This document shows, piece after piece, positions 1 through 32,924 of a DNA stretch of 34,361 nt. The notes under the pieces were generated by a model. It had not been told where the DNA came from. It worked only from the letters and a program-made list of their open reading frames with translations, and did not search any database. This DNA is from Clostridiales bacterium (lineage in GTDB: Bacteria > Bacillota > Sulfobacillia > Sulfobacillales > Sulfobacillaceae), in assembly GCA_027365485.1 (NCBI GenBank), contig DAHXNH010000345.1, positions 1 through 34,361 on the forward strand, read 5' to 3'. The position numbers and the translations under genes are program-made. Every line of letters begins with the position of its first letter. Within the stretch, counting starts at the first letter, position 1.

Positions 1-3000
1 TCCCGATACGTCAGATTCTGGTCCTCATATACCACCGCGACGGCTTCCGGGGTCCGCTCAACCTGTGCCTCAAACAGTTGGTGAATCGTCTGGTCCTTCG
101 GATATTCGGCCTCGGTCGCGTTGAACTCTACCAGCACCTGCTCTTTCTCTAATTTCGTCAGCAAGTGAATCTCACTTAGGTGGATCTCTGGATGCTCGAC
201 AATCTGCCCGAGCAGATGCATCCAATGTCCTGCCATTCGCTCGACAGTGATTCGTTCAAACAACTCAGTCGCGTATTCAAATCGAAATTCAAGTTCATTA
301 CCGTCAACTACCTCGAGGGTAATGTCAAATTTGGCATCCGAAGAAATTGCCACTTTGGAAATTTGAAGTCCAGCAAGCATTAGGTCATCATACGCCGATT
401 CTTGCATCACGAACATTGTGTCAAATATAGGATTCCGGCTCACATCCCTGATCAGCGAAAGTTTCTCGACTATCATCTCAAGCGGTACATCCTGATGCTC
501 ATGGGCCCCCAGAACGGTTTCTCTTATCTCCCCTACAAACTCTACAAATGTCTTGTGTCCTTTGGGATATCCTCGCAGGGCCACGGAATTGACAAACATC
601 CCTACCACATTGCGCACGTCTGGATGGAACCTTCCGGCCATTGCCGAACCCACGATAATTTCATCCTGCCCGCTCCAAGAAGCCAGTAACGTCTGATAAG
701 CGGCGAGCAATACCGTGTGCAACGTGGAGCCGCAGGTTTGAGCCAATTTCATGAGCCCCTGTTGCAACTGAGCATCGGCCCGGACCAAAATGGTATCCCC
801 GCTAAAACGGTGCACCGCCGGACGCGGTCTATCCGTAGGCAACTGCAAAATAGACAATTCCCCGCCCAATTGACTTAACCAGTAATCTTCTTTGAGCTTA
901 TATTCCTTGCCGTCGGCTAATCTACCCCTCTGCCATACGGTATAGTCCTTGTACTCAATTCGGGGCATCTCGGCAAGGGGCTGGCCTTCATATAGGGCTT
1001 TGATATCACGAAGCAAAATACCCGTAGAGATACCGTCTACCACAATGTGATGAGTATCAAAGACAAGGAAGAAACGCCGCGCCCCTGTTTGCATGATGCC
1101 TACTCTGAACAAAGGGCCGTCGCTCAGGTCAAAGGGCCTCCTAAAATTGTTCAACCACTCTTGAATGTCTCTTTCCTCGTGCAACGGTAATTCCAACCGG
1201 ATTTGGAACGAATCAACAACCCCCTGAATGGGCGTTCCACCACGATTGACAAACACAGTGCGCAAGGCAGCGTGACGCCGGACGAGCTCATTCAGCACCT
1301 CTTCGAGTCGATGAACGTCTAAGTCTCCCTCTACCAGGTATCCCTGTGCCAAATGGTATGCGGTACTTTCTGGATTCAATTGCTGAAGAATAAACATACG
1401 CAGTTGCTGAGGTGACAACTCACACGTTTCCACGTTAGCGACAGGAATCGGTGCAACCGATTGGGGCCCCGCAGTTTCAACAAAATCCACAACGTCCTGA
1501 AATAGAGGGTGTTCCATAAAGTTCCTTAAAGGGATTTCGACTTGAAAGCATGCCTGAATCTGCATCATCATTTCAACCGCTTTTAAGGAATTGCCGCCGA
1601 CCTCAAAAAAATGGTCCGACAGGTCGACCTCTTGAACGTTAAGAGTCCGGGACCAAATTTCAGCCAGTTCTACTGCAATCCCTGAGTGTTGTTGATTTAT
1701 TACCCTGACGCGTCCCTCATTTCGCATCAGGGAGCGGACGTCATTCGCGATTTCGTCATACTCACCGTTTTGGCATTGCTCTGCGAGCAGGTACCGCCGG
1801 AGTTTTCCACTGGTTGTCTTGGGAAGGCGGCGGATGGGGATCATGTCGGAAAACCGGAAACCACACAACCGATTGATCCGGGACTGAACTTCATAGAATA
1901 CAGGCGCCAATTTTTCGAGATTGCGGGTCTTAGATTCGACAAACAGTACAATTTTCTCGCAGCCACGATGCGAGTCCGTGAATCCAACCACAGCTGTGGA
2001 GCCACTGACCATACCTGCGACAGCTTCAACTAGCCGTTCGACGTCATGAGCATAGAAATTTTGGCCGTTCACAAACAAGATGTCTTTCACTCGACCTGTC
2101 ACAACGAGCCTTCCATTACGCATGAAGCCCATATCCCCCGTACGGAGCCATCCGTCGGTGGTGAACAAATTCCTACTGCCTTCTTCATTTCTCCAGTAGC
2201 CGCTTGTAACGTTGAGTCCGCTGATCTGAATTTCGCCATACATCATCTCTGGCAACGCATGGTCGTCGGCGTCACAAATACGTATCCCGACATAATCAAT
2301 CGGATAACCTACATCCACAAACTCAGCGCTATGTTCGGATTCGTCCGATTCCACCACCGGCTCCCCCATAGCCATGCCCCTTCGTTTAACTGCCACAACG
2401 GCTATGTCCTCCTGAACAGGAGGCATTGTCAGTGCCAGTGATGCTTCCGCCATGCCATACACATTGAACACACTTCTTCTATCAAGACCGTAGTCTGCCA
2501 ACGTCTGCGTAAATTGACGAACCACCCGTGGCAAAACAGGTTCAGCGCCGTTGAAGATGAGACGTAAGCTGGATAAGTCCCAACCGCTTGCCTTTCGTGC
2601 ATCGAAGTGTCTGCAAAAATAGTCGTATCCAAAATTAGGAGAACCTGTAAGGGTGGCGCGACACTGAGAGATAAGTTCCATCCACATTTGGGGTCGGAGC
2701 ATAAACAATGCAGGCGAGACCAAGTGCACGCTGATGTTTACTACAAGTAGCGTCAGGTGGAACCCAACCAGTCCCATATCATGAGTAAGCGGCATCCAAG
2801 ACACGGCCAAGTCGCGTGCGCTCAAACGTGCAGCCGTTTCGATGGCTCGGATGTTGCGAATCACATTGTCATGAGTGATCGTCACCCCCTTGGGGTCACC
2901 GGTGGATCCAGAGGAGAACTGGATAAATGCGACATTTTCAGGGGTTGCTTCATAGATTTGTCCTGAATTGAATTCGGCGTCCATCAACAGCTTTATGTCT

Positions 3001-3422
3001 AGAAGTCTAGATTCTATCGCATGGTATGTCGACCTCCATGTGTGTTCACGTTCAGAGAAAGACCGAAGTGACTCCATATGTAGGGTATCAGTCACTAGAA
3101 ATGGATCTTTCAACTGCGTCCATATTCGGAACAACTTTTGCTTATATTCCTCCAGCGTCGCCATAGAGACCGGGACGGGGATCATCCCACCCAGAATACA
3201 AGCCCAAAATACGATGACAAATACCTCGTTGTCTTCGATTTGAAATACCACTTCATCGCCCGGCTGAATTCCCTGTTGCTGCAAGACACCAAGCGTTTGA
3301 ACCGCTCTGCGAAAGACGTTTTCGTAGGTCACAAACTTGGTGTGAGTAGCTTTTACAAAGTGGATCCCCTTGTGACTCTCCGAACGGCGAAGCATCATTG
3401 CATCGTGTAAAGTCCGAATCAC
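1..3422 (-). CDS. Nonribosomal peptide synthetase, FAAL-type loading module, partial (runs off the left edge)
   Basis: The first 1140 codons of a large synthetase are open without a stop to the window edge. Residues about 1-560 resemble fatty-acyl-AMP ligases: SSGSTGDPKG at about 170-179, then MPLTHDMGLVG, NGAEPV, YGMAEASLAL and GRVKDILFVNGQNFY. A carrier follows (FFEVGGNSL; phosphopantetheine Ser about 612), then a condensation domain with an intact HHIVVDG at 791-797. The last residues (LTYR, about 1137-1140) are the A1 motif of the next adenylation domain. The start chosen is GTG at 3422 because GGGGTGA lies five bases upstream; an in-frame TGA closes the frame just above. By family knowledge such a ligase activates a fatty acid as acyl-AMP and loads the carrier, and the C domain joins it to the first amino acid, so a lipopeptide is inferred. 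The product is unknown. The gene looks AT-richer than its neighbours by eye. A divergent decayed transposase begins 51 bp upstream. Confidence 0.9.
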   Translation of the reverse strand, partial: MIRTLHDAMMLRRSESHKGIHFVKATHTKFVTYENVFRRAVQTLGVLQQQGIQPGDEVVFQIEDNEVFVIVFWACILGGMIPVPVSMATLEEYKQKLFRIWTQLKDPFLVTDTLHMESLRSFSEREHTWRSTYHAIESRLLDIKLLMDAEFNSGQIYEATPENVAFIQFSSGSTGDPKGVTITHDNVIRNIRAIETAARLSARDLAVSWMPLTHDMGLVGFHLTLLVVNISVHLVSPALFMLRPQMWMELISQCRATLTGSPNFGYDYFCRHFDARKASGWDLSSLRLIFNGAEPVLPRVVRQFTQTLADYGLDRRSVFNVYGMAEASLALTMPPVQEDIAVVAVKRRGMAMGEPVVESDESEHSAEFVDVGYPIDYVGIRICDADDHALPEMMYGEIQISGLNVTSGYWRNEEGSRNLFTTDGWLRTGDMGFMRNGRLVVTGRVKDILFVNGQNFYAHDVERLVEAVAGMVSGSTAVVGFTDSHRGCEKIVLFVESKTRNLEKLAPVFYEVQSRINRLCGFRFSDMIPIRRLPKTTSGKLRRYLLAEQCQNGEYDEIANDVRSLMRNEGRVRVINQQHSGIAVELAEIWSRTLNVQEVDLSDHFFEVGGNSLKAVEMMMQIQACFQVEIPLRNFMEHPLFQDVVDFVETAGPQSVAPIPVANVETCELSPQQLRMFILQQLNPESTAYHLAQGYLVEGDLDVHRLEEVLNELVRRHAALRTVFVNRGGTPIQGVVDSFQIRLELPLHEERDIQEWLNNFRRPFDLSDGPLFRVGIMQTGARRFFLVFDTHHIVVDGISTGILLRDIKALYEGQPLAEMPRIEYKDYTVWQRGRLADGKEYKLKEDYWLSQLGGELSILQLPTDRPRPAVHRFSGDTILVRADAQLQQGLMKLAQTCGSTLHTVLLAAYQTLLASWSGQDEIIVGSAMAGRFHPDVRNVVGMFVNSVALRGYPKGHKTFVEFVGEIRETVLGAHEHQDVPLEMIVEKLSLIRDVSRNPIFDTMFVMQESAYDDLMLAGLQISKVAISSDAKFDITLEVVDGNELEFRFEYATELFERITVERMAGHWMHLLGQIVEHPEIHLSEIHLLTKLEKEQVLVEFNATEAEYPKDQTIHQLFEAQVERTPEAVAVVYEDQNLTYR

Positions 3423-3473
3423 TTTATTCACCCCGTGTTTTCAATTGCTCAACTTTCCAAGACCTAACGCGCG

Positions 3474-4721
3474 GTGAATTCAATACCCGGCAACGATTTC
3501 AGGAATTTATCTATCGATCTTGACAGCGAAAAAGTGCCGAAAATGCCGGTTTCTCGGTCTACTTATTTTGTCGAACAAACCCTAAAAAAGCCATATACAC
3601 GATACCACAGAACGATGAAAAGTTTATTCTCACCTTCTTTTTCGGAAATTTGGCATGGGCCGTCTTCTCTGGGCGTTAAGCGTCCGCACCAGGCAATGGG
3701 TGCATCGGTTTTCGGCCTCGCCTGATGCGTTCTTCCTCGTCGATGACTCCCTCTTCGATCGGCATCGGCATCGGCATCGGCATCGGAGTCGCCACGTCGA
3801 TTTCCTATCCAAAGTGTACGATCACGTGGAGCATTGCTTTCGGTAGCCCACGCTAGGCTGGTCCCACGGGACGACCTTCTCACCCGTGGCCCTGTCGTTA
3901 CTGGGCATTGCGCCCCGCTTGGTCCTCCTCGACCGCTGGTTTGCGACTGGGAACCTCGCCGCCATGATCCCCCAGACCACCGAACTCGATGTGATTGGGA
4001 CGGTCAAAGCATCTCCCCACGTCTATTACGAGTTCGCGAAGGCTCACCGCGTCGGCCAGTACACGCTCAATCAGTTGGGCTGCCAACTCATTTGGCCCCC
4101 GATGGCGATCCGTGCCATCTTGGGATCGTGCCGGGTCACGCTGGCTACGGAATCCGGTCGGCCCCCGCGTCGCATCGTCTTTGTGCGAAATCTGGGCGCG
4201 CGCTCTAAGCAATGGCTCACCTTGTGGAGGACCGGTGTGTCCGTACCAGAGGATCAAGTCGTGAGGATTTACGGCAAGCGCTGTCTTGGCCATCGAGACG
4301 GTCTTTAAAGGTCGCGAAGAGTCTCTTGGGGTCCCCGCGAATACCAAGGTCGCTCCTGCGAAGGCATGCAGGCCCATGTGACCATCGTCTCTATCCGATA
4401 TCAGTGGCTGACACGTGGGACGCCTGGACCGCCGAAGATGTTCGCACCCTGGCTGACCCGTTTTTCGTGCCATGTCAGGATCTGGAAGATCTCGCCTTCG
4501 GGTGGGTCATCGACCAGATTGCGGCCGCATTCGGGGCCACTCTCCGTGAGGATCTCGAACTGAACGAAGCCCAAATTGGGGCGTTCTTCCAAAGTTTTCT
4601 GGAGCGCGTACCCGAGCGACTACGAAATCCGATACAGCGAACGGCATCCATCGCGTTTCTTAAGACGCCGTACTCCTTGCTACATCAGGGATTCGCCCAC
4701 ACTTTTTGCGTGGCCAGTTGA
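3474..4721 (+). pseudogene. Decayed IS4-type DDE transposase
   Basis: Several reading frames together spell one transposase of about 415 codons. The N-terminal part (from ATG 3474) is in one frame. Near 3655-3660 the similarity moves to the frame with FFLVDDSLFDR (first catalytic Asp region) and VYDHVEH. An in-frame TAG sits at 3844-3846. The same frame resumes with LGWSHGTTFSPVALSLL and, after an apparent internal deletion, LVLLDRWFATGNLAAMIP (second Asp region) and VRIYGKR. Further frameshifts near 4280, 4310, 4345 and 4400 are needed to read AIETVFK, VAKSLLG, YQGRSCEGMQAHVTIV and the C-terminal part AEDVRTLADPFFV to SFLERVPERLRN. The YGKR...IE..FK pattern is the Y-(2)R-(3)E-(6)K signature of the IS4 group. 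With four or more lesions it cannot make an active enzyme. Terminal inverted repeats were not identified. Confidence 0.75.
3758..3787. repeat. Hexanucleotide tandem repeat ATCGGC x4 plus ATCGGA
   Basis: Four perfect ATCGGC units and a fifth ending in A lie inside the transposase pseudogene, directly after its VDDSLFDR motif. They encode alternating His-Arg. The 6-base unit keeps the frame, so this looks like slippage expansion in a dead gene. Confidence 0.85.
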
Positions 4722-4794
4722 GTGACCCACTCTGAGAACACTACGCTTGCGCTATCTATCCGTGGGCCTCCCACGAAGCCCGAACCACCCGGGC

Positions 4795-4827
4795 AAAAAG
4801 CGGTCCTCCTATGGTACGGAAGACCGC
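4795..4827 (-). terminator. Rho-independent terminator of the atp operon
   Basis: Read on the minus strand, GCGGTCTTCC pairs with GGAGGACCGC (one mismatch) around an 8-base loop and is followed by TTTTT. It lies 33 bp past the atpC stop, at the end of the operon. Confidence 0.85.
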
Positions 4828-4859: not shown

Positions 4860-5303
4860 TTACTCGACCAAAAGCGTGGCATTACCACGATTACCGCTTT
4901 TCACATCCTGAGCCACAGCGATTCGGCTCAAAGCTCTCGCCATCGCCCGCTGCGCGCGATGCAAATCGTGGTCTTCTCCACCTTGGTCTATTCGAGTCTG
5001 TGCTCGATCGCGAGCGGCCTCGGCACGGGGCAAGTCAATCTCTTCCGACAATTCTGCCGCATCGGCTAAAATCAAGCTGCCTTGCTCGTTCACCTCTAGA
5101 AATCCGCCAGCGATCGCGAGGTGGTGCACACTCTGATCCTCGAGATAGACCGTTAACACATGAGCCACCAACGGGGTGATGATAGGAATATGGTGCGGTA
5201 AAATGCCCAGTTCTCCCTCGACCGAACGCGTAATGATTTCATTCACCGCTTGGTCGAAGACGGTACGTTCCGGTGTTACCACCCGCAATCGAAAGGTGGC
5301 CAT
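4860..5303 (-). CDS. atpC: ATP synthase F1 epsilon subunit
   Basis: This 147-residue protein is the central-stalk epsilon subunit, which contacts gamma and the c-ring and can inhibit ATP hydrolysis. The N-terminal beta-sandwich shows TPERTVFDQAVNEI and the conserved GELGILPHHIPIITPL stretch, followed by IAGGFLEV. The C-terminal half (from about residue 88) is a charged two-helix region with EAARDRAQ. Length is close to the usual 130-140, with a slightly long tail. ATG 5303 is preceded by GGAGGGAT at good spacing. It is the last gene of the operon, 16 bp after atpD, and is followed by a strong terminator. Confidence 0.96.
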   Translation of the reverse strand: MATFRLRVVTPERTVFDQAVNEIITRSVEGELGILPHHIPIITPLVAHVLTVYLEDQSVHHLAIAGGFLEVNEQGSLILADAAELSEEIDLPRAEAARDRAQTRIDQGGEDHDLHRAQRAMARALSRIAVAQDVKSGNRGNATLLVE

Positions 5304-13043: not shown

Positions 13044-14492
13044 TCAACTATCCTTCGACATTCTACCCCAAACCACCTGCCAAAGCTTTAGAAGAAGTGC
13101 ATCCAACTGTTGGGCCACGGCTTCGTATTCTTGGTCCGAGCCGCCATAAGGGTCGGAAATATCTCCCGAGGGATCTCCGACCAAATCGGTCAAACGCCAG
13201 ACCCGCTCCGCCCAGTTCGGCCGCATGCGTTTGACCGCCTCTGCCTGATCTTGAGTCATGGTCAAGACGAATCGAGGCTCTTGTGCCACCGAGTCAAGCG
13301 TCTTAGCCCGGTGATAGGCCAGTGACGCCCCCAACTTAGACACCGCCTTCATCGCAGCGGGGGCCGCCCCGGCTCCCAAGTGGGCCATCAATCCCGCGGA
13401 ATGGGCCGTGAAGATCCCATAACGATGGTTCCACAGTGCTTCAGCCATGGCGCTGCGACACGTATTGCCGGTGCACACGAACAACATCGAGTCATTGCCG
13501 AGACCCTGGGCTTTATGCAAACGGTTGAGCACCGCCTCGCCGACACCTTGGTGATGGTTCCAAATCACGGCGATGTATTCGGGATGCATCCGGTCGAGTT
13601 GGCGGAGACCCTGAAACAGATAATGCGCCCCTTCATCCACTGTCTCGCCCAAACTAAAGCTCAAAATGGTGGGCGAGCGGAGTCTCGTCAACCATGACTC
13701 GCGCGCCAGCACCGCGACGCTCCCTGGCCCACGGTCAAGCGCCTGCAATTGCGACGTCACGACGACCGGATCCTCGCTGGAAATGACCACGACTTGTGCC
13801 TTAGGCGCATAATGGCGATAGCGCGTACCCGGCGACCGATGTTGGCCCGAACCTGTGGGTTCCGCCAACCGCCCCACGATCTCTTCGATATCCCGTCGTG
13901 AGATTCCTCCCGGCCGAAGGAGCGTTGGTGGATCGACCGTGACATCAATGACGGTAGACTCCACTCCCAGTGGGCTGGCTCCTCCATCTAAGACCAGGGC
14001 GATGCGACCCGCTAAATCTTCGAACACCGCCTCCGCGTCGGTAGGGCTAGGGCGCCCGGAACGGTTGGCGCTCGGAGCGGCGATCGGTCGGCCTAGCTTT
14101 TGAATCAATTCTCGAGCCACCGGATGACTCGGCATGCGCACGGCGACCGTTTCGAGCCCACCGCGCACCTCCAAAGGCACTCGACCATTCGCCCGGACCA
14201 CCAACGTCAGCGCTCCCGGCCAAAATCGCTCAGCGAGGCGGGCTGCCAAAGGCGTAAGCGGCATTGCCGAGACCTGAGACAGCATCTCCCAGTCAGCCAG
14301 ATGCACAATTAGAGGATTATCTGCGGGTCGCCCTTTGGCAACAAAGACTTTTCTGGCCGCGTCCAAATTCAATGCATCACAACCCAAGCCGTACACCGTT
14401 TCCGTAGGAAACGCTACCAGCTCTCCTAGCGCCAGCAACCGCGCGGCGCGTTCAATCTGATCGGAGCTAGCTGTCACTCGTTGGGTATTCAT
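13044..14492 (-). CDS. Fusion: threonylcarbamoyl-AMP synthase (Sua5/YwlC) plus low-molecular-weight phosphatase (YwlE-like)
   Basis: One 482-residue frame joins two enzymes. Residues about 10-320 are Sua5: YrdC core with FPTETVYGLGCDA (28-40), KGRPADNPL (53-61), APSANRSG (139-146) and LRPGGISR (192-199), then the Sua5 C-terminal domain beginning near the SPGTRYRHYAP linker (220-230). It makes threonylcarbamoyl-AMP for the t6A tRNA modification. Residues about 336-480 are a low-molecular-weight protein tyrosine/arginine phosphatase with the CTGNTCR loop (340-346) and general-acid DPYG (447-450). In Bacillus these are the nearby separate genes ywlC and ywlE. The junction (about 322-336) is read without a stop, and ATG 14492 overlaps the rhodanese stop by 4 bp. 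Confidence 0.93.
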   Translation of the reverse strand: MNTQRVTASSDQIERAARLLALGELVAFPTETVYGLGCDALNLDAARKVFVAKGRPADNPLIVHLADWEMLSQVSAMPLTPLAARLAERFWPGALTLVVRANGRVPLEVRGGLETVAVRMPSHPVARELIQKLGRPIAAPSANRSGRPSPTDAEAVFEDLAGRIALVLDGGASPLGVESTVIDVTVDPPTLLRPGGISRRDIEEIVGRLAEPTGSGQHRSPGTRYRHYAPKAQVVVISSEDPVVVTSQLQALDRGPGSVAVLARESWLTRLRSPTILSFSLGETVDEGAHYLFQGLRQLDRMHPEYIAVIWNHHQGVGEAVLNRLHKAQGLGNDSMLFVCTGNTCRSAMAEALWNHRYGIFTAHSAGLMAHLGAGAAPAAMKAVSKLGASLAYHRAKTLDSVAQEPRFVLTMTQDQAEAVKRMRPNWAERVWRLTDLVGDPSGDISDPYGGSDQEYEAVAQQLDALLLKLWQVVWGRMSKDS

Positions 14493-26760: not shown

Positions 26761-27360
26761 ATGGCACATATCTATTCTCCGAAACAGTTTGGAGCGTTGA
26801 TTGGGAAGTCGGTGGCCACGTTGCAGCGATGGGACCGTGAGGGGATTCTGACGGCCTATCGCTCTCCCACGAATCGACGCTATTACACGCACGATCAGTA
26901 TCTGGCGTACGTCGGTGTGGTGGCGAAGCCCCGAGGGCGTGTGGTGCTGTATGCACGAGTTTCGACCCGCAATCAACGTCCTGATTTACTCAACCAAGTC
27001 GTTGCGTTAGAGCAGTATTGTCAGCAACACGGGATCATCCCGAGCGACACAATTCAGGACATCGCCACGGCTTAAACTATCACCGCAAAGGCTTCAATCA
27101 ACTCTATGAAGACATCGAAGTCGGCAAAGTGCGTCAACTGATTGTGGCCCACAAAGACCGTCTGGTTCGAATGGTTCGCCGAGTTCTGTGCCCGACATGG
27201 GACGGAATTAGTCGTCATGAACCAAGAAACGCTATCGCCTGAGCAAGAAATGGTCAACGATTTACTGTCGATTGTCCACGTTTTCAGCGCTCGCCTGTAT
27301 GGTTTGCGATCCTATCGAAAGGAGTTGAAACATGCTCTTCGCGAAAAAGATTCGGATTAA
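26761..27360 (+). pseudogene. IS607-type serine recombinase TnpA, frameshifted
   Basis: The first part (26761-27072) has a MerR-like helix-turn-helix (IYSPKQFGALIGKSVATLQRWDREG) and the start of the serine recombinase domain with VVLYARVSTRNQ (catalytic Ser68). It then meets a TAA at 27073-27075. The family sequence continues in another frame (GLNYHRKGFNQLYEDIEVGKVRQLIVAHKDRLVR), which fits one missing G at about 27071. A second shift near 27165 leads to the third frame (FEWFAEFCARHG, and the C-terminal FSARLYGLRSYRKE). The second shift looks like a deletion between GTTCGA repeats. Two lesions make it unlikely to be functional, though programmed frameshifting cannot be formally excluded. Confidence 0.85.
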
Positions 27361-28522
27361 GGTCTCCCCCCGCGATGCGGAGACGCTGGAATTCATGCAA
27401 ACCAAGTGTCGAGCCCTGTACAACTGGCATTTGAGTCATTTGAAAGCAGGGGCGCGGTGGTCGCTCTATGAAGCCAAGAAAACCCTGCAACAGAGTCGTC
27501 AAATCGATCCTGAGCTCAACGCAGTTTATGGCAAACTGTTACAAGAAGTCTTTTTTCGGCTCGATGAGGCCATGCAAGCCTTCTTCCGTCGCGTGAAAGC
27601 GCGGGAAACGCCGGGATTCCCGCGCTACCATCCCCGGCAGAAATTCTTCACCTTGAAATATCCTGGCATGTACATCCACGTTCAAGGTCAACAACTCATG
27701 CTGCCCACGGGAGGCCGTGGTAAAACGAAGCGGTTACCAGATATCCATGCCACACTCACCGAAACGGCCCCAACACCATTGCGGGAAGTGGCGATTACGA
27801 AAGATGCGGAAGGGCATTATTACGCCACGTTTCTATCGGAGACTAGCGAGTCACCGCCCCAGGCGGATGATGGGAGTGCGGTTGCCTATGACTTGGGGAT
27901 TAAAACCTTGGCCACGGGCTATAGCACGACCGGACGCTTTGTGCATATTGGCGGGTTTACCACCTATCGTTGGTATAACAAGCAGCTGGATCACCTGCGA
28001 TCCCTTCGCGCCCGATGTCATCAGGGTTCGCGGCGGTATCGCTACCTAACCGCAGTCTACCACCGCGTGTCGGAAAAGAAACGGCGGAAGCAACGCGATT
28101 CCCTACACAAAGCCTCGGCTTTCCTGACACGACAGGCTGAAAGAGCTATCGTGCTAGGCGATCTGTCCCAACAGCAGATGGTGCGGAAATCGCGGAAATG
28201 TACCAAGCGAACCCAAGGGCTGCATCGCAGTGTGCAAAATGAGTGGGGTCTTTATCAATTCGTCCAGATGGTTCAGTACAAAGCGCAACGCACCGGCAAA
28301 ACCGTCTACGTCATAAGCGAGCAGTACACATCGAAAGAGTGTTCGGAGTGTGGCTATCGCCAAGACATGCCGTTGTGGAAGCGGACGTATCACTGTCCGC
28401 AATGTGGCCTCGTCATGGATCGCGACGAAAATTCGGCCCGTAACATTCTTGCCCGGTTCCTTGCCCGGCTAGGACCATATCTCGAAAGAGACGATGTGCT
28501 GAGTGAAAGCTCAGGAATTTGA
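27332..28522 (+). CDS. tnpB: TnpB RNA-guided nuclease-type protein of an IS607 element
   Basis: This intact 396-residue protein has a N-terminal OrfB_IS605-type domain and a RuvC-like nuclease fold with zinc ribbon. RuvC-I Asp187 is in YDLGIKT. At the canonical RuvC-II glutamate position the residue is Gly276 (IVLGDLS). A Glu occurs at 330 in VISEQYTSKECSECG, just before the zinc cysteines C337, C340, C355 and C358. RuvC-III DRDENSARN (363-370) is intact. The start overlaps the tnpA remnant. Known relatives use a guide RNA made from the transposon right end, overlapping the tnpB 3' end; the sequence directly after the stop (28523 on) may be scaffold or guide. Whether it cuts DNA is not shown. 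Confidence 0.9.
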   Translation: MLFAKKIRIKVSPRDAETLEFMQTKCRALYNWHLSHLKAGARWSLYEAKKTLQQSRQIDPELNAVYGKLLQEVFFRLDEAMQAFFRRVKARETPGFPRYHPRQKFFTLKYPGMYIHVQGQQLMLPTGGRGKTKRLPDIHATLTETAPTPLREVAITKDAEGHYYATFLSETSESPPQADDGSAVAYDLGIKTLATGYSTTGRFVHIGGFTTYRWYNKQLDHLRSLRARCHQGSRRYRYLTAVYHRVSEKKRRKQRDSLHKASAFLTRQAERAIVLGDLSQQQMVRKSRKCTKRTQGLHRSVQNEWGLYQFVQMVQYKAQRTGKTVYVISEQYTSKECSECGYRQDMPLWKRTYHCPQCGLVMDRDENSARNILARFLARLGPYLERDDVLSESSGI

Positions 28523-28541
28523 ACATGTTTACACATGTTTA
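28523..28541. repeat. Direct repeat ACATGTTTA, two copies
   Basis: Two perfect 9-base copies separated by one C directly follow the tnpB stop codon. They may mark the transposon right end or a recombinase-binding site. No matching copy was seen on the left side. Confidence 0.7.
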
Positions 28542-28562
28542 GAAAGGCAGGATGATGGCAAT

Positions 28563-29954
28563 ATGATGAATCCAACGATTTTTCGCGAATACGACATTCG
28601 CGGTATCGTCGACGAGGACATATCCCCCGATGGGGTGGTTCTACTAGGCAGGGCATTTGGCTCCTATCTCAGACAACACGGGTTAGAACAGGCGGTTTTA
28701 GGATGGGATTCGCGTGCATCCTCGCCTCCGTATCGGGACGCGCTGACTGAGGGCTTGACCTCCACTGGGATTGATGTGCTCGACATTGGGGAAGTCACCA
28801 CCCCTATTTTTTATTGGGCTCGGGTGCACTATCAGCTCGAAGGTGGAGCGATGATTACCGCCAGTCACAATCCGGCCGAATATAACGGATTCAAGCTGGC
28901 GGCGCGTGGCAAAGGCACCCTCTTCGGTGACGAAATTCAAAAAGTACGCCAACTGATGGAAGCGGGCCAGTTCGAAACCGGCCACGGCAGCGTGCGCCAC
29001 GACAACCCGGTTCCGGAATATTTGGCGATGTTAAAAGAGAAGATTACCCTCGGTCCACGCCCGCTCAAAGTCGTCGTGGACTGCGGCAATGGAACCCCCA
29101 GCCTCTTCGTGCGCGACACCATGCAGGCGTTTGGGATCACGGATGCGACTTACCTATATTGCGAAACCGATCCGACGTTTCCCAACCATCATCCCGATCC
29201 GGTGGTGGCTAAAAACTTAGTCGATCTAATCGCGACGGTTCAAGATCTAGGCGCTGACATCGGTGTGGCCTTCGATGGAGATGGCGACCGCATCGGCGTG
29301 GTCGACGAACACGGCCAAATCATTTGGGGCGACCGGTTGATGATCTTGTATTGGCGAGAAATTTTAGCGAGCCATCCCGGCACTCCGGCGATTGTCGAAG
29401 TGAAGTGTTCTCAGACCCTGTTTGATGAAATTAAACGCATGGGAGGCCGTCCGCTTTTCTACAAAACCGGTCACTCGCTAATCAAAGACAAGATGCGCGA
29501 ACTCGACGCGGTGTTTACCGGAGAAATGTCGGGGCATATGTTTTTCGCCGATGAATACTATGGCTTTGACGACGCCTTTTATGCCGCAGGTCGCATCTTT
29601 CGCATCCTCTCGCAGACCGACCTGTCGCTGTCCCAGTTGTTGGCCGACGTGCCCCTGCTTCCTTCCACCCCGGAAGTCCGCATCGACTGCCCCGACGAAA
29701 AGAAATTCGAGGTGGTCGCTACCCTGCGACAGCAATTTGGGGAAGATTCATCGCTAGAGGTGATCGATATTGATGGCGTACGCGTCAATTTTGGTCACGG
29801 CTGGGGCCTCATTCGCGCATCCAATACCCAACCCGCGTTAGTCGCCCGCGCGGAAGCCGACACCGAGATGCACTTACAGGAAATTCTCCATGCCCTCGAT
29901 CAGAAATTAAGTCAATTCCCGTTTATCGGATCCACCGATTGGACAGGGGAGTAA
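28563..29954 (+). CDS. Phosphomannomutase/phosphoglucomutase (alpha-D-phosphohexomutase family)
   Basis: The 463-residue enzyme interconverts hexose 6-phosphate and 1-phosphate, feeding sugar-nucleotide synthesis. All four domain motifs are present: catalytic Ser101 in ITASHNP, metal-binding DGDGDR (238-243), sugar-binding GEMSGH (320-325) and phosphate-binding RASNTQP (418-424). GEMSGH fits ManB/AlgC-type enzymes that accept both glucose and mannose. The frame is open from 28503, where it would overlap tnpB; ATG 28563 (or 28566) gives the family's usual onset. The IS607 element separates it from whatever preceded it. Confidence 0.93.
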   Translation: MMNPTIFREYDIRGIVDEDISPDGVVLLGRAFGSYLRQHGLEQAVLGWDSRASSPPYRDALTEGLTSTGIDVLDIGEVTTPIFYWARVHYQLEGGAMITASHNPAEYNGFKLAARGKGTLFGDEIQKVRQLMEAGQFETGHGSVRHDNPVPEYLAMLKEKITLGPRPLKVVVDCGNGTPSLFVRDTMQAFGITDATYLYCETDPTFPNHHPDPVVAKNLVDLIATVQDLGADIGVAFDGDGDRIGVVDEHGQIIWGDRLMILYWREILASHPGTPAIVEVKCSQTLFDEIKRMGGRPLFYKTGHSLIKDKMRELDAVFTGEMSGHMFFADEYYGFDDAFYAAGRIFRILSQTDLSLSQLLADVPLLPSTPEVRIDCPDEKKFEVVATLRQQFGEDSSLEVIDIDGVRVNFGHGWGLIRASNTQPALVARAEADTEMHLQEILHALDQKLSQFPFIGSTDWTGE

Positions 29955-31457: not shown

Positions 31458-32924
31458 ATGACAAAGCGGCTTCGCGACTATGCTGGTTTGGCGGGTATCG
31501 GCCTTTGGTGGCTCACGGTAGGAGTTTATGCGCTGTTGGCACTGACGCATCCTCCCTCTTCTCTGGCCCCCGAGTTGCTGGCTGCCTCGGTGTTGTTGGC
31601 GAGCGGAATTGTGGTTGGGGTCGGAGTTCGACGCGTCCTCCTCGTCCTTGTCCTGGTCGCTTCGTTATGGCTTTTGTCGGAATGGATGTTGGCATTTTTG
31701 TCGGTGATTACGGCGGCTTTGGGCACGCTCACAGTGCTTCGCTTTGGTTTAGGTTCAAGGCATCTCACCCTCTTTGGACGGCATCGGTGGTTCTTTTACC
31801 CTGTTGGCATCCGAACCGAAGACCGTTTTTTACACACGCATGTTCTCGGGCCCACCGGGTCCGGTAAATCGTCTTCCGTGTTGATGCCGATCATCTGGCA
31901 AGACCTCTATCAGGGTCACGGAATCAGCCTGATTGAACCGAAAGGGGATCTCAGTTTGGCGACCATGCGGGCCGCCCTCGATACCGGGCACACGGTGCTC
32001 TATGTGGACCCCGACGACCCCAAGGCCCCCCACTATAACCCCCTCTCGGGCCCGGCTGCGGTCGCTGCGGAGGGTCTGGCCTGGGCACTCGACCAAGCCA
32101 GCGAAAGTGGTCACCCGTTTTACGCCACGCTCGCCCGCCTGGAACTGCTCTATGCCGTCCTGGCGGTCAAAGAGGCGGCTTTAGAGAACACCGATGTCCC
32201 CATGATTATGCGTTTTCTGCGCCAAGACGGTTTTCGCCGGGACGTCTTAAACGCCTGTCAGGACACCCGCACCCTCGCTTACTATGCCGAACAAGTCGGG
32301 CGCCAATCGCAAGCCAAGGCCCATGAGCAACGGATTGGTCTCTTGAATCGGTTAGAACTGTTGTTGGTGAATCCGCGGGTGCGAAATATCCTGGAAGGCC
32401 CAGGCGATTTTACCTGGGATGAAGTCTTACACGAAGGTCATGTGGTGATTTGTCCTTTTTCGTTGGCCCGTCTCGGAATCTCGGCGCGCTTGCTGGGCAA
32501 TCTCTTTTGGCACGGCTTGGTCATGGCGACCTACCGTCGGCCAGCCACCGATCGCACCCCATACTTCCTGTTCATTGACGAGTTTCATCAGTTTGTCTCC
32601 CCGGATCTGGGCGATTACCTCGCCTTGGCGCGGGGGTACAAGGTGGGCATCACCTTGGCCCACCAAGACCTCGGCCAACTGAGCGCAGAGTTAAAATCTG
32701 CAGTGATGGCCAATTGTCGACAACGCGTGATCTTAGGAGGCATCTCAGGAGAAGATCAAAAAGAGCTGGAGCGTTCCTTAAACCTCAATCGCCAAACCCC
32801 ACCAGACTTTCGTCATCTTCCTTTGGGACGCGCTTTTGTCGAACGAACCGCCCACGGCCAACTTAAACCAGCGGTCATGTTGCAGCTTTTTCATCGGTCG
32901 TTGGAATCAAAGGCCTCGTCATGA
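31458..32924 (+). CDS. Membrane-anchored VirD4/TraG-like coupling ATPase
   Basis: The 488-residue protein has an N-terminal membrane region of about three or four helices (11-95). The ATPase part follows, with Walker A GPTGSGKS (131-138), DPDDP, Walker B LFIDEF (371-376) and the AHQDLGQL motif (401-408) that continues with ANCRQRVILGG. This layout is that of type IV coupling proteins (VirD4/TraG, TraD), which bring DNA or effectors to a conjugative channel. It lacks a clear C-terminal recognition domain. AGGTGAT precedes ATG 31458 by six bases. It overlaps the next gene by 4 bp. In a chromosome this suggests an integrated conjugative or mobilisable element. Confidence 0.82.
   Translation: MTKRLRDYAGLAGIGLWWLTVGVYALLALTHPPSSLAPELLAASVLLASGIVVGVGVRRVLLVLVLVASLWLLSEWMLAFLSVITAALGTLTVLRFGLGSRHLTLFGRHRWFFYPVGIRTEDRFLHTHVLGPTGSGKSSSVLMPIIWQDLYQGHGISLIEPKGDLSLATMRAALDTGHTVLYVDPDDPKAPHYNPLSGPAAVAAEGLAWALDQASESGHPFYATLARLELLYAVLAVKEAALENTDVPMIMRFLRQDGFRRDVLNACQDTRTLAYYAEQVGRQSQAKAHEQRIGLLNRLELLLVNPRVRNILEGPGDFTWDEVLHEGHVVICPFSLARLGISARLLGNLFWHGLVMATYRRPATDRTPYFLFIDEFHQFVSPDLGDYLALARGYKVGITLAHQDLGQLSAELKSAVMANCRQRVILGGISGEDQKELERSLNLNRQTPPDFRHLPLGRAFVERTAHGQLKPAVMLQLFHRSLESKASS

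Follow-up and report, generated by a model that had tools for sequence, protein, structure and literature searches.

A probable single-module nonribosomal peptide synthetase with a fatty-acyl-AMP-ligase start and an adenylation domain that looks swapped in

What does a nonribosomal peptide synthetase (NRPS) make when only the front of its gene lies on the assembled contig, and how did its parts come together? The window, by which we mean the whole stretch of 34,361 nucleotides that was analysed, is the entire contig C39. From a GTG at 3431 its minus strand is open without a stop to the window edge (1143 amino acids in the open-reading-frame reading), where the NRPS gene is truncated. An earlier note, made from the letters alone, had described this frame as open to the edge and as the beginning of a lipopeptide assembly line; the frame is indeed open, and the start given there, 3422, is the next in-frame GTG. 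The rest of the gene is found on contig C364 of the same genome, whose first 141 bases are those of the window on the opposite strand, exact and in frame. C364 supplies the adenylation (A), second carrier (PCP2) and thioesterase (TE) domains and completes the gene to 1919 amino acids. The far end of C364 has an exact 141-base overlap with the end of contig C11 on the ywmB side, and two overlaps of equal length look like the k-mer overlap of the assembler. The source genome comprises 4.93 Mb in 440 contigs, with a completeness of 96% and a contamination of 4.4% (tool estimates). The features at this end of the window are as follows:

3-3431, minus strand: NRPS gene, first 1143 codons; completed in contig C364 (L010:2-2470), 1919 codons in total
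1677-3431, minus strand: predicted FAAL (fatty-acyl-AMP ligase) domain, residues 1-585; FAAL-specific insertion near residues 335-372
1467-1676, minus strand: carrier domain PCP1, residues 586-655, with GGNS at 612
147-1466, minus strand: condensation (C) domain, residues 656-1095, with HHIVVDG at 794
1-146, minus strand: C-A linker and first A-domain residues; bases 1-141 are shared exactly with C364
3886-4718, plus strand: degraded IS4-family transposase, pieces in two frames (profile NF049925)
4860-5303, minus strand: atpC (ATP-synt_DE_N, ATP-synt_DE), upstream edge of the insertion site

On the 1143-residue front part Pfam finds AMP-binding (29-413), PP-binding (588-651) and Condensation (669-1099). 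The A domain is missed within the window, which holds only about 30 of its N-terminal residues, and is revealed by C364, whose frame matches AMP-binding, PP-binding and Thioesterase (PF00975, E 2.5e-19). The order FAAL, carrier, C, A that had been proposed from the window is therefore borne out by Pfam on both contigs. All core motifs are present in the joined protein (HHxxxDG, two GGxS in the forms GGNS and GGTS, YGPTE and GxSxG), so that the C, A and PCP domains of an NRPS module each carry theirs, and the terminal release domain, the thioesterase, has GYSAG at 1764. A phosphopantetheinyl transferase gene (L010:2555-3259; PF01648, E 7e-21) lies 84 bases downstream of the NRPS gene; its top NCBIfam match is AusB of aureusimine synthesis, with 74 bits against a cut-off of 225. 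We consider it fairly likely that the gene is a complete single-module FAAL-initiated NRPS of 1919 amino acids, FAAL-PCP-C-A-PCP-TE, with a phosphopantetheinyl transferase gene downstream. The domains, their order and the motifs can be read directly in the joined frame; catalysis, substrates and product are predicted from them.

The first question is whether the ligase is a FAAL or an ordinary acyl-CoA synthetase. In the alignment columns of query residues 320-400 the query has 81 residues and nine other FAAL-type rows have 81-83, as against 58 in the A domain of the NRPS and 52-56 in five further ligases that this genome encodes, presumably of another class. This insertion is described as exclusive to FAALs in a passage of a 2025 review (PMC11837247). 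A tree of 16 rows places the query inside a set of eight NRPS FAALs with support 100/99, on a topology with long outgroup branches, and the ligase stands apart from the remaining ligases encoded in the source genome. Among PDB chains the highest scores go to 6ulw, 6ulx, McyG, 3kxw and 3pbk (230-288 bits), and the malonyl-CoA synthetase 4fuq scores 105 bits; chains with intermediate scores that are named CoA synthase or ligase are FadD32, FadD23 and FadD28, which we take to be FAALs. NCBIfam supports the assignment in part: PRK09192 (fatty acyl-AMP ligase) leads with 365 bits against a cut-off of 600, followed by PRK07768, named long-chain-fatty-acid--CoA ligase, with 351 against 572, and the CoA ligase PRK06187 with 194 bits is likewise below its cut-off. 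The ligase reaches no curated FAAL family cut-off in NCBIfam, these cut-offs being those of single subfamilies. By its sequence the NRPS-borne ligase is a FAAL, as the earlier note had proposed.

The second question is whether the gene is alive. In a sister species (G001) the front part of the NRPS is present at 96% amino acid identity, on a contig that is also public (JAMCVM010000137.1, from the MAG Bacillota bacterium FK_Sedi_B_Bin.94). Over 1113 codons the two differ at 73 synonymous and 47 non-synonymous positions with no gap, which gives a dS of 0.10 and a dN/dS of 0.18. The gap-free neighbors atpD, atpC, atpG, Sua5 and rho have dS values of 0.07-0.11 and dN/dS values of 0.07-0.20; atpA was left out of this comparison because its alignment is gapped. 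A low dN/dS in a gap-free alignment, with a dS like that of the neighbors, suggests that the gene probably predates the split of the two species and that it has been under selection since. The NRPS frame is no remnant, and neither of the two outcomes by which the earlier note would have been refuted was observed. It is very improbable that the ligase belongs with the ordinary acyl-CoA synthetases or that the module is a dead leftover, an idea that could draw on the near tie of PRK09192 and PRK07768, both under their cut-offs, and on the dead transposase that adjoins the gene; we reject it on the FAAL insertion, the clustering with NRPS FAALs and the dN/dS, and the fusion of the ligase to a carrier domain and the intact motifs argue in the same direction.

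The expectation of a lipopeptide fared less well. The completed gene has one C domain and one amino-acid A domain followed by the thioesterase, and a profile search of the contigs in the binned genome returned a single Condensation match in all, so that the at least two amino-acid modules of a lipopeptide synthetase were not found there. Elsewhere in the genome the A-domain protein matches frames of 503-553 amino acids, about the size of free-standing ligases, and the sister genome has one NRPS front half, one back half and zero further modules. One C domain, one A domain and a thioesterase predict one acylated amino acid, and the product is likely an N-acyl amino acid (lipoamino acid) rather than a lipopeptide. 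In the proposed route the FAAL would convert a free fatty acid to acyl-AMP and load it onto PCP1, the A domain, probably acquired by recombination, would activate one amino acid and load PCP2, and the C domain would couple the fatty acyl group and the amino acid. The thioesterase would then release the N-acyl amino acid or a derivative, and the transferase would arm the carrier domains.

Two points tell against a single-module enzyme: the join of C39 and C364 is based on assembly overlap rather than on reads, and the sister's two contigs leave the A domain unassembled, one ending at codon 1113 and the other resuming at 1585. One could assume that the real enzyme is a longer lipopeptide synthetase, that further modules with the same C-A linker were dropped by the assembler, and that C39 and C364 are merely its two ends. 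C39 does stop in the C-A linker, as does the contig of the sister, and multi-module FAAL-NRPSs are usual among the relatives found. However, there is only the one Condensation match among the binned contigs, the linker and A-domain DNA is matched by no other contig of the genome and none adds a module, and the sequence of C364 is unbroken from the linker through A and PCP to the thioesterase. We regard a longer synthetase as unlikely. The C domain was compared with C domains that follow a FAAL, as a lipo-initiation (starter) domain would group with these: a tree of 30 rows places it in no supported set, and its best BLAST matches are two domains that follow a FAAL (L033, L034), the next being domains from later positions.

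Under the ten-position scheme for A-domain specificity, the code of the A domain is DMWTVGSVAK. No identical code occurs among the other rows of a set of 207, which includes the query's own row and some overlapping loci, and the closest other code, DAVTVGEVAK, agrees at 7 of 10 positions. As a control, the same columns in a Bacillus inaquosorum locus (L048) give DALSVGEVVK, DLTKIGEVGK, DAQDLGVVDK, DVQFIAHVVK, DLTKIGEVGK and DFWNIGMVHK, which we take to be, in this order, the Tyr, Asn, Gln, Pro, Asn and Thr codes of iturin-type synthetases. A weak guess from the code would be that the substrate is an aromatic or hydrophobic amino acid.

Where the gene sits suggests how it arrived. In the sister, the contig with the PCP-TE part and the transferase continues into a DUF1779 (ywmB-like) gene and an M23 peptidase gene; in the source genome this stretch is on C11, with 98% identity to the sister. 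Of 13 hand-picked relatives, 11 have a ywmB-like match downstream of atpC within the fetched flank, nine of them at a distance of no more than 400 bases, and two (L129, L130) have none there. In the source genome the distance between atpC and ywmB is about 10 kb (an estimate across contigs). Since the two genes lie close together in most of these relatives, the NRPS and transferase genes form an island between two old neighbors, and the pair probably was gained there. This agrees with the hint of horizontal gain in the earlier note, as does, modestly, its remark that the region is richer in AT than its neighbors: bases 1-4000, taken as four 1-kb blocks, have a GC content of 0.49-0.51 and the remaining blocks of the window one of 0.52-0.59, and GC3 is 0.53 for the FAAL and C domains, whereas 18 further frames of the window lie at 0.56-0.68.

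The dead transposase reported beside the gene is there, on the plus strand. Its pieces 3886-4305 and 4212-4718 match NF049925 with 59 and 22 bits (cut-off 250), and neither has a Pfam match to a transposase domain. The sister has the remnant too, at 93-94% identity and with a deletion, so that this IS4-type remnant is old. A composite transposon was considered and rejected, as blastn of C364 against the window gives only the 141-base overlap; a second copy of the remnant was not found in the source genome at E 0.001, and neither was a flanking pair.

The composition within the gene is not uniform. GC3 along the joined gene is 0.53 for FAAL and C, 0.73 for A and 0.54 for the thioesterase, with 0.50 for the transferase gene, and the A domain thus differs from both of its flanks. 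The best single segment comprises codons 1087-1638 (codon 1087 corresponds to base 173), with a GC3 of 0.73 inside and 0.53 outside, and its log-likelihood gain is 32.5; 200 shuffles that do not preserve local correlation give no more than 12.7. It begins at the C-A boundary and ends in PCP2. In 149 C-A modules from 68 fetched loci, whose domain edges were placed slightly differently from those of the query, the A-minus-C difference in GC3 averages 0.007 (s.d. 0.045); our difference of 0.193 is reached by one of the 149, and another three fall at 0.149-0.183, so that jumps of this size, though rare, do occur elsewhere. Four Paenibacillus NRPS modules (L039, L044, L047, L085) have an A domain 15-20 GC3 points above the C domain; these possibly are further A-domain swaps.

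The GC3 segment suggests that the A domain was swapped in from elsewhere by recombination. Passages of PMC7486941 describe hotspots of recombination located between the C and A domains, and they name A-domain substitution as primary in NRPS diversification. Like the cases treated there, the GC-rich segment starts at the C-A boundary; unlike them, it ends in PCP2, whereas the downstream hotspot in those passages is near motif A5. Searches of 42 genomes from the order and 154 from the class found no donor of the A domain; outside the genus the best DNA relatives come from G022, where pieces reach about 70% identity and the NRPS loci have a GC content of 62-66%.

Similarity to the sister shifts sharply along the locus (window 1-4800 against L029, L030 and L138), from a dS of 0.10 in the front part to at most 0.009 in the back part and 98% DNA identity on C11. 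In the back part the dS is 0.009 for PCP-TE and 0 for the transferase, and both genes are too similar to those of the sister for a selection test. The back part perhaps was also exchanged recently, and mixing of strains in the assembly would look alike. The joined gene would then be a chimera of two strains, its front from this species and its back from a sister-like strain. The fall in dS from 0.10 to 0.009 across the A domain fits this explanation, and so does the 98-99.8% identity of C364 to the contig of the sister in the aligned stretches. However, C364 starts with its own genome's version of the linker over 141 bases, where the sister's version differs; C11, beyond C364, is also 98% identical to the sister, and similarity varies along the locus without this break, the upstream blocks ranging from 93 to 99% identity. 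We consider such a chimera improbable, and the domain architecture would be identical in either strain.

A wider form of the swap is possible, and we offer it tentatively: in this genus the A domain of a minimal lipoamino-acid synthetase might be a replaceable cassette that passes from strain to strain and from species to species; the acylated amino acid would then vary, whereas the loading of the acyl group and the release step would not. This would explain the GC3 mosaic, the tenfold drop in dS beyond the A domain and the points where the assemblies break off, at the 5' edge of that domain here and at both of its edges in the sister. A-domain substitution is already a known route of NRPS evolution; if the A domain was truly swapped, the gene is a compact natural example of a change in NRPS specificity.

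Close relatives of the enzyme are few. At E 1e-60, 13 of 151 genomes match, including the source genome, with at most 41% identity except in the sister. Of 398 genomes drawn evenly from the phylum, six match at 1e-120, again including the source genome, the others at 29-41%. A search of GTDB contigs listed 75 loci, one at 96% and the rest at no more than 40% in their best segment; 29 of these have frames with a FAAL match (21 from Paenibacillus), and among the loci listed only the sister exceeds 43% identity in the FAAL domain. The FAAL-NRPSs of other Bacillota resemble ours in joining FAAL, carrier, C and A in one protein, with FAAL domains 39-43% identical; the Paenibacillus frames mostly have two to three C domains, whereas ours has one and ends in a thioesterase. 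The FAAL-NRPS of Alkaliphilus transvaalensis (L033, a frame of 2157 amino acids) likewise has one FAAL and one amino-acid A domain, and its front half is collinear with ours at about 40% identity, but it carries an additional, divergent C domain and lacks a Thioesterase match. The PvdL-type enzymes (NCBIfam NF004282; PDB 9lcq) have the same domain order at the front: NF004282 is collinear with residues 29-1142 at 630 bits, below its cut-off of 4090, and spans 4334 positions, whereas ours has one module. As outlined in part of PMC9113097, the daptomycin-type start consists of a FAAL, a free-standing ACP and a special C domain; in our protein, FAAL and carrier are fused to the module. The earlier statement that such NRPSs are little described in these bacteria fits the open-licence literature, in which a search by title and start of abstract found no paper on such an enzyme in this group; a catalogue from acid mine drainage (PMC9734747) counts 1,738 NRPS clusters, and neither FAAL nor lipopeptide occurs as a word in its main text. 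The enzyme is of a known kind, and it looks as if the part that selects the amino acid was swapped in. A one-module FAAL-NRPS with its own transferase gene offers a small complete system in which to study fatty-acid loading and amino-acid coupling; the class is already well known, and the interest therefore modest.

Elsewhere in the window, a single frame of 482 amino acids (13044-14492, minus strand) fuses Sua5/YrdC with a low-molecular-weight phosphotyrosine phosphatase, and a TnpB/OrfB-like protein (Pfam Cas12f1-like_TNB, OrfB_IS605) is encoded at 27332-28522 on the plus strand. A phosphomannomutase gene (28503-29954, plus strand) lies near a frame with a match to a type IV secretion coupling protein (31458-32924, plus strand; T4SS-DNA_transf, E 1.5e-12). 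In the sister locus, L030:11919-12199 has copies of about 80% identity across many contigs of the source genome and is perhaps a repeat or a mobile element.
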